Of a stretch of 64,000 nt of DNA, positions 1-3,214 are shown in pieces. Made by a program: the position numbers and the translations under genes. The notes under the pieces were generated by a model. The model was not told the DNA's origin. It searched no databases and saw only the letters and a program-made list of their open reading frames with translations. Position 1 is the stretch's first letter, and the number at the start of each line of letters is the position of its first letter. This stretch comes from Haloterrigena alkaliphila (GTDB taxonomy: Archaea; Halobacteriota; Halobacteria; Halobacteriales; Natrialbaceae): contig NZ_CP071462.1 of assembly GCF_017352155.2 (NCBI RefSeq), positions 1,364,001-1,428,000 of the forward strand, written 5' to 3'.

Positions 1-431
1 CTGCGAACGATCGACGATCGTCTTCATCGAAGCGCTGGGGCCACCCGCGAGACGCAAGATGACACAGTCAAGAGAGACCGTAGTCAGGAAATGACGGAGT
101 CGTCCAGCATGCAGTCGTCGACCCCGGGGATGAATTCACGAGACCAGACGGAGGGCGACGCGGATTGGTTCGAGTCGAGAACCGACTCGAGCACGCAATG
201 CGGTCCAACTGCTTGACGTGATCTGCAGTCCCACTGGTAGACGTGATCGGAAACGGGTGAGCCGCTGACGGGTGATGGATTGGAATCGACGATCGAATCG
301 TATCGATTCGGATCCGATCAAGGCGAATCGACGGAATCGTTCGTCCATCACTGAGAGCGAATTAGGAAGGATTCGTTCAGCGGAATAGATGTGATCTGTT
401 TGTGTGATCTGGTTGACTGGTAACGTGGCTA

Positions 432-460
432 GCCCCCCACCCCTTCGTTTCAGGTGGAAC
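432..460 (-). repeat. Origin recognition box (ORB), left, minus orientation
   Basis: Read on the minus strand, the site is TTCCACCTGAAACG followed by AAGGGGTGGGGGG. This matches the haloarchaeal ORB layout: a short half site, GAAACGA, then a G-string bound by Orc1/Cdc6. It is the inverted partner of the box at 755-784. A second G-run (469-490) follows directly and may be a partial or mini-ORB. Confidence 0.8.
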
Positions 461-489
461 GCGGAGAAGGAGGGGGTGGGGGGAGAGGG

Positions 490-650
490 GTGTTCTAGGA
501 CAGGCAGTTTTATCTATCTGGGGAAGAAACTCGGTCCGTAGCACTAGCAAAGCGAATATTTTACTAGATCGGTTAGATACTGTTACTAGTTTCTGCTAGA
601 ATAGCTCTATTTGACGACCCATGTTACTAGAACTCTCTCAACCCTCGAGT
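490..650. other. AT-rich core, candidate duplex-unwinding element
   Basis: This segment lies between the inverted ORBs and is clearly poorer in GC than its surroundings. It carries three copies of TTACTAG (561-567, 583-589, 624-630) plus related CTAG-containing words at 543 and 595. Position and composition fit the DNA-unwinding element expected between opposed ORBs. The role of the heptamers is unknown. Confidence 0.6.
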
Positions 651-754
651 TCATCGGCTTCACCGTCTCTCTGGACTGCTCGTGGACGGCTGGCAGTGTC
701 GTATCGGGCTATCGGCGGCGATCATCACCGAACACTCACCCACACCCTCACTAC

Positions 755-784
755 TCTCCAGTCGAAACGAAGGGGTGGGGGTGG
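755..784 (+). repeat. Origin recognition box (ORB), right, plus orientation
   Basis: The site reads CTCCAGTCGAAACG followed by AAGGGGTGGGGGTGG. It shares GAAACGAAGGGGTGGGGG with the inverted box at 432-460. The two boxes are about 295 bp apart in head-to-head inverted orientation around the AT-rich core, as in other haloarchaeal oriC1 loci. Confidence 0.8.
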
Positions 785-1175
785 TTCGGGCGAACAACAG
801 AGACCGCTCGATCGGTTTGCCATCCAGTTCGGTTCCGTCTCGAGAGCTTTCCCATCTCTGCTTCGGTCACGGCTGGTACCACATCACAGATCAATTGGTA
901 CCATCTCACATTCTCTCCGCTCGAACGGAGGTACTGATACACGCTCACACACTCCCTCGTTCACTCGTTCACTCGTTCACTGGTTCCCACCCTCTCCTTC
1001 CCGTACCGTCCAACGACGTATCGTTCGGTAACTCCTTGGACACCATCCTATCACTCTTTTGGCATACTGACAACGTAGTTGAATTGAATTGTCTACACGT
1101 CTGACGTAGGCTTAAGTGGGTTCAGTTTGTAGTACGCGCAGATGCACCACCCCGCGGTGCTGGAGGGCCCCACAG

Positions 1176-1814
1176 ATGGGACTGTTCACAGAACTCAAAG
1201 ATAGTATCTCTCGGGTTACGGACCGCCTCTTCTCGGAAGAGGAACCCAAACGTATCGGTATCTACGGTCCGCCGAACGCTGGAAAGACGACGCTTGCGAA
1301 CCGAATCGCTCGCGACTGGACCGGTGACGCCGTCGGTGCGGAGAGTCACATTCCACACGAAACGCGACGCGCACGCAGGAAAGAAGACGTCGAGATCGAA
1401 CGCAACGGCAAGTCGGTGACGATCGATATCGTCGACACGCCCGGTGTGACGACGAAAGTCGACTACGAGGAATTCACCGACGAGATGGAGGAAGACGACG
1501 CGATCCGTCGCTCCCGCGAGGCCACCGAAGGCGTCGCCGAAGCGATGCACTGGCTCCGCGAGGACGTCGATGGCGTTATCTACGTGCTCGACAGTGCCGA
1601 GGATCCGATCACGCAGGTCAACACGATGCTGATCGGTATCATCGAATCTCGCGATCTCCCGGTTCTCATCTTCGCGAACAAGATCGACCTCGACGACTCG
1701 AGCGTGAAACGGATCGAGGACGCGTTCCCACAGCACAAGACGATCCCGCTCTCCGCGAAGGAAGGCGAAAACATGGACGAAGTCTACGAGAACATCGCGG
1801 AGTACTTCGGGTGA
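1176..1814 (+). CDS. oapA: Era-like GTPase OapA (origin-associated protein)
   Basis: Predicted 212-residue cytosolic GTP-binding protein. G1 is GPPNAGKT (about residues 31-38), G3 is DTPG, G4 is NKID and G5 is SAK near the C-terminus, so the GTPase set is intact. I chose ATG 1176 rather than the upstream in-frame start at 1116 because residues before MGLFTELKDS are not protein-like and a GGAGG lies near 1162. A TATA-like CTTAAG sits at about 1110. It begins the oapABC run, six bases before oapB. The family is conserved next to haloarchaeal oriC1; a direct role in replication is not established by the sequence. Confidence 0.92.
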   Translation: MGLFTELKDSISRVTDRLFSEEEPKRIGIYGPPNAGKTTLANRIARDWTGDAVGAESHIPHETRRARRKEDVEIERNGKSVTIDIVDTPGVTTKVDYEEFTDEMEEDDAIRRSREATEGVAEAMHWLREDVDGVIYVLDSAEDPITQVNTMLIGIIESRDLPVLIFANKIDLDDSSVKRIEDAFPQHKTIPLSAKEGENMDEVYENIAEYFG

Positions 1815-1820
1815 TTACCG

Positions 1821-2222
1821 ATGCCAAAAGCAACTAACGCGGACGATCCCGACGCTCCAGACGGTGTCCAGATCGATCTGATCAGCGGCGAACGCATGGA
1901 CGGGATGGCGACGATGGAGAAGATCCGAATGATCCTCGACGGCGTCCACGACGGCAACATCGTCATCCTCGAGGAGGGGCTGACTCCCGACGAGGAGAGT
2001 CGGCTCATCGAGGTGACGATGTCCGAGATCAGTCCCGACGAGTTCAACGGGATCGAGATCGAGACCTACCCCAAATCCAAGGCGAACGATTCCTCGCTGC
2101 TCGGCCGGATCATGGGCGGCGACGAGTCGGCGGCGAAGCTGACGGTCATCGGACCGGCCAACCAGATCGAAACGCTCCACAAGGACGAAACGCTCATCAG
2201 CGCGCTCGTGTCACGAGACTAA
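1821..2222 (+). CDS. oapB: DUF2073 family protein OapB
   Basis: 133-residue acidic protein of the archaeal DUF2073 family, usually found between an Era-like GTPase and a zinc-ribbon gene beside the origin. The core is IDLISGERMDGM, then a segment rich in charged residues (EEGLTPDEESRLIEVTM). No catalytic motif is visible. It starts 6 bp after oapA, and its TAA overlaps the ATG of oapC by one base, so the three genes should be co-transcribed and translationally coupled. Molecular function is unknown; the partnership with the GTPase is inferred from constant gene order. Confidence 0.9.
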   Translation: MPKATNADDPDAPDGVQIDLISGERMDGMATMEKIRMILDGVHDGNIVILEEGLTPDEESRLIEVTMSEISPDEFNGIEIETYPKSKANDSSLLGRIMGGDESAAKLTVIGPANQIETLHKDETLISALVSRD

Positions 2223-3214
2223 TGCCTCACGAATGCACGACCTGCGGCCGGACGTTCCCCGACGGCTCCAAGGAGATGCTGTCGGGCTGTCCGGACTGCG
2301 GCGGGAACAAGTTCCAGTTCGCCCCCGCCGGCCGGGCGTCGACCGGCTCGAGCAACGCGGCCCAGTCGACGGCGGCCGAGACGACGGCCGAGTCACGTCC
2401 GGACGCGACCGGGACGGCCGGATCCGCAGAGTCGACCGGAACCGTCGAGCGCGCGGCCGAAACCGTTCGCGACTGGGTCTCGTCCGGCTCGGCTCGACCG
2501 GCCGACTCGGCCGACGCGAGTCAGGAGCCTGCGGCCGACGCGAACCGCGATCCGACCACCGCGACAAACGGCGATCCGACCGCGGACGCGAACCGCAACC
2601 CAGCGGCAGACGCGAACCGCGATTCGTCGACGTCGGCCTGGCCCTCGAGCGACGAGCGACCAGATTCGGACGCGTCCGCCGAAACCGGCGAGTTCACAGA
2701 GTGGCCGGAGACGGCGCGACGGCCCGAGGATCGATCGACGCCACCGAGTGACGATGCCCGCGGCACCTCACAGACTGCGTCTGCATCCGAACCGACGCCC
2801 GATCGCTCGGCCGCGGTCGACGACGGGTCGATCATGGCGGACGACGAGAACACGGCGCAGGCCGACGCCCGAAGCGAAGTCGTTTCCTCGGACGATCTGC
2901 CCGCCGGGTCCGACCGGTCGGACCGAGGGATGGGTGGCGGCTCCAGTCGAACCGACGCCCCGGTCCACGAGACCGGTGACCGGCCGCCGGAACACGGCCG
3001 GGTCGTCAGCGAACCCTCGGGCGAGCAACCCTCGATCGAGGAACTGCGCGCGGAGCTCAACGAGCAGTTCGAGAGCATCAAAATCGTCAGCCCGGGCCAG
3101 TACGAACTCAATCTGATGGAACTCTACAACCGCGAGGAGTACATCATCTCGCTGCAGGAGGACGGCCGATACGTCATCGACGTCCCCGATTCGTGGCGTG
3201 CCGACGAGGAGTGA
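2222..3214 (+). CDS. oapC: Zinc-ribbon protein OapC with long disordered linker
   Basis: 330 residues in three parts. The N-terminus is a zinc ribbon with C5-x2-C8 and C23-x2-C26. About residues 40-250 form a low-complexity Ser/Thr/Asp/Ala-rich linker with short repeats of the DANRDP type at 2530-2630. The C-terminal 60 or so residues (from about SIEELRAELNEQ, ending VIDVPDSWRADEE) look folded and conserved. Homologues are the third gene of the origin-associated trio. The linker suggests a tether between a zinc-binding head and the C-terminal domain; this is inference. The start overlaps oapB by one base. Confidence 0.88.
   Translation: MPHECTTCGRTFPDGSKEMLSGCPDCGGNKFQFAPAGRASTGSSNAAQSTAAETTAESRPDATGTAGSAESTGTVERAAETVRDWVSSGSARPADSADASQEPAADANRDPTTATNGDPTADANRNPAADANRDSSTSAWPSSDERPDSDASAETGEFTEWPETARRPEDRSTPPSDDARGTSQTASASEPTPDRSAAVDDGSIMADDENTAQADARSEVVSSDDLPAGSDRSDRGMGGGSSRTDAPVHETGDRPPEHGRVVSEPSGEQPSIEELRAELNEQFESIKIVSPGQYELNLMELYNREEYIISLQEDGRYVIDVPDSWRADEE

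Follow-up and report, generated by a model that had tools for sequence, protein, structure and literature searches.

Putative initiator boxes inside orc1 and dp1 beside the predicted replication origin oriC1 of Haloterrigena alkaliphila

A stretch of 64,000 nucleotides from the haloarchaeon Haloterrigena alkaliphila (positions 1364001-1428000 of contig NZ_CP071462.1, here C1, in a genome of 4.27 Mb on three contigs; the whole stretch is called the window) begins with what is predicted to be the main chromosomal replication origin, oriC1, bounded by two inverted origin recognition boxes (ORBs). The locus raises the question of whether the sites addressed by the initiator protein Orc1 end at the origin or continue into the genes around it. 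Further ORB cores are found in the leader and the coding region of orc1 and inside dp1, the gene for the small subunit of polymerase D. The conservation of these satellite boxes points to an unreported way in which oriC1 may be controlled.

Boxes outside the origin

The ORB core TCCANNNGAAACGNAGGGG has seven exact matches in the genome, six of which lie within 31.5 kb ending at oriC1; these six include the two origin boxes and two cores at 28.6 and 31.4 kb. Exact copies are situated inside orc1 (C1:1362820-1362838) and inside dp1 (C1:1359272-1359290), and a copy with one mismatch is present in the orc1 leader (C1:1363515-1363533). The two genes and their satellite ORBs are all located to the left of the first base of the window; elsewhere in the window no match to the ORB core was found at up to one mismatch.

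A survey of 80 named haloarchaeal orc1 loci with 6-kb flanks, 68 of them with a recognised origin, gave 327 matches to the ORB motif when one mismatch was allowed, a figure that includes the origin boxes; the reversed pattern, used as a control over the same loci, gave none. With two mismatches allowed, 52 of the 68 loci have a box in the leader, 30 have one inside orc1 and 13 have one immediately downstream of this gene; of the 61 loci with dp1 in range, 57 have a box in dp1. From the origin to the end of dp1, a locus has on average 2.9 satellites (68 loci; control 0). In many Natrialbaceae the leader box is situated 15-33 bp before the orc1 start codon. Among the matches listed for the 24 listed genomes that have an identifiable origin pair, 46 of the 77 exact matches outside the origin are no more than 10 kb away from oriC1, and 62 are no more than 50 kb away; the species are related, and binomial values for these counts are not real probabilities. 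The clustering is visible across families.

The boxes of the origin run on as TGGGGG, whereas those in the leader, orc1 and dp1 do not. Within the eight nucleotides that follow GGGG, origin ORBs have a mean of 6.2 G and the leader, orc1 and dp1 boxes 1.7-2.5, a contrast partly built into the analysis, in which the G-tail was the mark used to recognise origin pairs; the satellites were not chosen for the absence of one.

The boxes in dp1 are arranged as a pair. In 49 loci the gene has two inverted boxes with their tails facing outward, separated, start to start, by 57 bp in 43 of the loci, by 54 bp in 3, by 69 bp in 2 and by 75 bp in 1. They are located in a variable linker ahead of the OB/phosphatase part. 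The conserved block after this linker begins at any residue from 112 to 224, yet the spacing of the boxes is constant. When genomes were searched for the 57-bp inverted pair, 18 of the 48 haloarchaeal ones proved to have it, whereas the 199 genomes from elsewhere in the phylum gave no match, nor did the control. The dp1 genes of Halorubrum and Halobellus still have an exact box, even though about 17-39 kb of the contig separate them from orc1. The partner of the exact dp1 box in H. alkaliphila, at C1:1359329-1359347, is degenerate.

A few boxes lie farther away. A perfect ORB core is found in intergenic DNA at C1:1335999-1336017, 28.6 kb left of the origin and upstream of a gene for a rhodanese-domain lipoprotein. 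The box TCCACCGGAAACGAAGGGG at C1:1333242-1333260, 31.4 kb from oriC1, is in apparently coding DNA. It recurs in genomes of the same genus 34-41 kb from the origin, in at least some of them on the other side, as if it had been shifted by an inversion around the origin. A second class of distant box, TCCA(T/C)GCGAAACGAAGGGG, occurs at C1:1559329-1559347 and in the relatives G001, G002, G026 and G028; wherever its distance from oriC1 could be read off, it was about 110-230 kb. A dispersed-repeat origin of the boxes was considered and rejected, given seven exact matches in 4.27 Mb.

Conservation of the DNA within coding boxes

Boxes in coding DNA are always read in one frame, giving the peptides PSVSTG and PVETKG-like. 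The shared frame is expected, because the other frames would give basic or hydrophobic residues. Codon usage was compared in dp1 pairs that had been picked by peptide alone. The codons in these boxes are GGA in 55 of 55 cases, CCA in 52 of 52 for proline, ACT in 52 of 52 for threonine, GTT in 45 of 45 for valine and GAA in 55 of 55. The background usage of the same genes is 14% for GGA, 13% for CCA, 8% for ACT, 10% for GTT and 33% for GAA. When the background is limited to the linkers, these values become 20%, 15%, 14%, 18% and 47%, and the bias remains.

Stacking of the 49 loci shows 1.61 bits at third codon positions inside the dp1 boxes versus 0.28 bits outside, and 1.69 versus 0.38 bits at the first two positions. 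Within the boxes, synonymous sites are therefore as constrained as replacement sites. Because the conservation of third positions is limited to the boxes, it is the DNA and not the peptide that is conserved. The satellites are very probably DNA elements maintained by selection.

Proposed role of the satellite boxes

Orc1 is likely to bind the satellites, whose core motif is the same as that of the origin boxes. At the origin, Orc1 produced by the divergent gene about 1 kb away would bind the pair of G-tailed ORBs that face outward; the AT core enclosed by these boxes, rich in CTAG, would melt and MCM would be loaded, as orthologues of oriC1 suggest. The satellites in the orc1 leader, in orc1 and in the dp1 pair would bind Orc1 without firing, because the G-tail and the AT-rich core are absent there. 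In oriC1 of Haloarcula hispanica, both ORBs and both G-tails are required for plasmid replication (PMC3936714). The G-tail being essential at oriC1, the satellites may thus bind Orc1 and yet not start replication. Once Orc1 builds up, the leader box would repress orc1, while the boxes in orc1 and dp1 would soak up the protein and restrain re-initiation. Being only 1-6 kb from the origin, the boxes in the two genes would be duplicated soon after initiation.

The best overall explanation is an oriC1 accompanied by satellites that are addressed by Orc1 and serve titration or autoregulation, with a rough probability of 0.55. Taken by itself, the assignment of the satellites to titration or autoregulation of the initiator stands at about even odds. 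The full circuit, in which an ordered set of Orc1 boxes in the coding DNA of orc1 and dp1, kept by selection on synonymous sites, would limit the firing of oriC1 by titration or autoregulation, is put forward tentatively, its chances falling slightly short of even.

Several points weigh against this explanation. The second dp1 box of H. alkaliphila has three mismatches. Several lineages (Haloquadratum, some Halorubrum) have a single box or none, so that the dp1 pair cannot be indispensable. In Haloarcula hispanica, oriC1 can be deleted (PMC3936714), and this sets a limit to how vital the control of this origin can be. Three to four extra sites per chromosome copy would provide only modest titration. 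Finally, spacing and pattern are partly inherited, and the species counts are therefore not independent.

The satellites might instead act in transcription or in the organisation of the chromosome, in which case Orc1 would regulate the transcription of orc1 and dp1, or a bridge would loop the orc1-dp1 region onto the origin. The position of the leader box just before the start codon in many Natrialbaceae would suit such a role, the near-fixed spacing of the inverted pair suggests a dimeric or looped complex, and a vital function of Cdc6A outside initiation at oriC1 was inferred in PMC3936714. However, an operator deep inside a gene is unusual, and a purely transcriptional or architectural role is considered possible but rather unlikely.

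It is improbable that the inverted pair in dp1 is a second initiation site, dormant or auxiliary, at which Orc1 loads MCM. The boxes are inverted with outward tails, the polarity seen at oriC1, and haloarchaea are known to keep dormant origins (PMC4595724). Nevertheless, the spacer between the dp1 boxes is 38 bp long with 65% GC and contains no AT-rich element, the boxes lack the G-tail that oriC1 of Haloarcula hispanica needs (PMC3936714), and the pair sits inside the gene for a subunit of the replicative polymerase.

There is very little left of the possibility that the locus is a plain oriC1 and that the coding boxes are peptide motifs (PSVSTG, PVETKG) of disordered linkers with an incidental likeness to ORBs. 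The dp1 and orc1 boxes do share a reading frame and the same short peptides, but this reading is largely refuted by synonymous positions that are conserved like replacement positions inside the boxes and not outside. Against it also stand the near-exclusive use of the rare codons GGA, CCA, ACT and GTT and the presence of the same DNA in leaders and origins, which are non-coding; moreover, two unrelated proteins would need to have the motif in common.

The origin in the window

Positions 432-784 of the window are, almost certainly, the predicted oriC1 of this member of the Natrialbaceae, orthologous to that of other haloarchaea. The original prediction, made from the window alone, had described two near-identical boxes facing each other across an AT-rich core, with oapABC directly to the right and an orc1/cdc6 gene expected to the left, and had regarded the site as oriC1; it holds in each of these respects. 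The boxes, which had been placed at 755-784 and 432-460, contain exact inverted 18-mers within these limits: GAAACGAAGGGGTGGGGG at 764-781 on the plus strand and its exact reverse complement at 434-451 on the minus strand. The genes oapA, oapB and oapC occupy 1176-3214. The prediction depended on an orc1/cdc6 gene within a few kb to the left of base 1, and a gene of the oriC1 type was found with its start 501 bp away. A search of the chromosome for ORB motifs, which had also been proposed, showed the G-tailed 17-mer to be unique to the origin and located further ORB cores near by. The layout, with its inverted G-tailed ORBs and AT core, equals that of the oriC1 dissected in Haloarcula hispanica (PMC3936714).

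The left ORB with its halophile G-tail extends over 434-460 on the minus strand (GTTCCACCTGAAACGAAGGGGTGGGGG) and the right ORB with its G-tail over 755-784 on the plus strand (CTCTCCAGTCGAAACGAAGGGGTGGGGGTG). Across the whole genome, the G-tailed 17-mer GAAACGAAGGGGTGGGG is matched perfectly only twice, once in each of the origin boxes (434-451 and 764-781), with one further match at two mismatches; the reversed pattern has none. The inverted match extends to 45 nt, 434-478 against 737-781, with 76% complementarity. Directly inside the left ORB there is a G-rich arm at 467-483 on the plus strand (AAGGAGGGGGTGGGGGG), 88% complementary to 433-449. It corresponds to element III of the inverted repeat that, in oriC1 of Haloarcula hispanica, lies directly on the inner side of the ORBs, is rich in G and enhances firing (PMC3936714). 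This enhancer repeat is present in part, the left arm being intact and well preserved and the right arm (737-750, minus strand) degenerate; half repeats are reported from other genera (PMC3936714).

The core between the ORBs, which has no strand, spans 484-752. Its GC content at 501-650 is 39-41%, whereas most 10-kb bins within the 400 kb around it have about 67%, so that an AT-rich unwinding element is present between the inverted ORBs. A local maximum of the cumulative GC skew coincides with the origin, but it is within noise, being no larger than others within 200 kb on either side, and is too weak to confirm activity; the AT skew over the same range is likewise too weak for a call. On either side of the origin ORBs there are imperfect direct repeats, three in all, at 199-248, 390-415 and 874-910: a 25-nt tandem (84%), TGTGATCTG(T/G)TTG present twice and TGGTACCA(C/T)(A/C)TCACA present twice.

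The origin is an ordinary member of the known oriC1 family, and its G-tails and CTAG cluster are already known. It shares with oriC1-cdc6A of Haloarcula hispanica and with haloarchaeal oriC1 in general the divergent orc1/cdc6, the inverted ORBs with outward G-tails, the AT-rich core, the G-rich element inside the left ORB, the GTPase gene (gbp/oapA) on the far side and a DNA polymerase subunit gene near by (PMC3936714, PMC3528665, PMC4010727).

CTAG sites in the origin core

Six CTAG sites are located in the core, at 495, 544, 564, 586, 596 and 627, and a seventh lies just outside it at 429 (cluster 429-630). The origin is the densest 300-bp CTAG stretch in the 404 kb of this genome that were examined. 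In 68 haloarchaeal cores the density is 18.95 per kb, versus 0.36 per kb in the flanks. CTAG has disappeared from the cores of Halorubrum, Haloquadratum, Halobellus and Halopenitus, and most such genomes lack the candidate methyltransferase that is present in H. alkaliphila. Of 18 genomes compared, 7 have no close counterpart of the H. alkaliphila enzyme, and their cores contain 0-1 CTAG; one Halorubrum (L105) has the candidate and no CTAG. This distribution suggests that the candidate methyltransferase modifies CTAG.

Earlier publications describe clusters of CTAG upstream of orc1/cdc6 genes in haloarchaea and connect them with an orphan N4-methylcytosine (m4C) methyltransferase (Blow et al., PMC4752239; also PMC10609329 and PMC5867850), and novelty of the cluster was therefore rejected (PMC4752239, PMC10609329). 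The six core sites found here, and their loss from relatives without the methyltransferase, agree with these reports. One refinement is that the sites fall between the two ORBs; there is nothing new in kind. Raw spacings between CTAG sites peak at 10, 20-22, 31 and 49 bp. Helical phasing was rejected, since no period stands out once identical patterns are collapsed, which indicates that the spacing pattern is inherited.

Neighbouring genes and the initiator

The predicted orc1/cdc6 gene (C1:1361689-1363500, minus strand) is divergent from the origin and encodes 603 amino acids. Its product scores 654 bits against the ORC1 equivalog model NF001625 of NCBIfam (cut-off 501), and among solved structures its best relative is Sulfolobus Cdc6-1 (2qby_A). 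An intein, considered because the match to the hidden Markov model is split, was rejected: the insert is acidic and of low complexity. This insert of about 160 residues separates the Walker A region from the Walker B region and is long in Natrialbaceae; the relatives from Haloarcula and Halorubrum have a shorter orc1. Two more full-length orc1/cdc6 genes are found within 16 kb on a 162-kb contig (C3:82786-98313), and at least five additional orc genes occur elsewhere in the genome.

To the right of the origin, all on the plus strand, are oapA (1176-1814), which encodes a small GTPase, oapB (1821-2222; Pfam PF09846, OapB, E 9e-43) and oapC (2222-3214; Pfam PF09845, OapC, E 2e-29), the product of which has a zinc ribbon and a long variable linker. 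These genes are now called arvA, arvB and arvC, because production of RNA-associated vesicles ceases in a Haloferax strain that lacks the GTPase (PMC10927574). The conserved neighbourhood of GTPase, orc1, signal peptidase and dp1 is present; synteny around haloarchaeal oriC1 was described in PMC4010727.

Comparison with known systems

Unlike the origin, the satellites appear to be unreported, and priority is not certain. No earlier report of ORBs in orc1 or polD coding DNA was found in the literature covered, which included passages of the main oriC1 papers. The published search for ORBs covered intergenic regions (PMC3528665), and boxes inside orc1 or dp1 are unmentioned in the available passages of PMC3936714, PMC3528665 and PMC4010727. 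When origins are predicted from intergenic DNA alone, initiator sites within coding sequences can be missed. The orc1 and dp1 boxes offer a specific target, since they can be erased by synonymous recoding, with both proteins left unchanged, in tractable haloarchaea that have them in dp1. Haloarchaea are polyploid and have several origins, and the satellites may bear on how the main origin is kept from over-firing.

An initiator titration locus is known in E. coli as datA. In the literature covered, one case of described titration sites was found, at oriC2 of Haloarcula hispanica: oriC2D, which consists of 11 ORBs downstream of cdc6E, lowers the activity of oriC2, likely by titration of Cdc6E (PMC3936714). 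The locus of H. alkaliphila has the trait of such loci, several initiator boxes near but outside the origin, and, as in oriC2D and datA, these extra boxes lie close to the origin that they would control. It differs from both in that its boxes number three to four, follow an ordered layout and lie mostly within protein-coding genes. It differs from oriC2D also in that the satellites belong to oriC1 rather than oriC2 and are spread over the haloarchaeal class.
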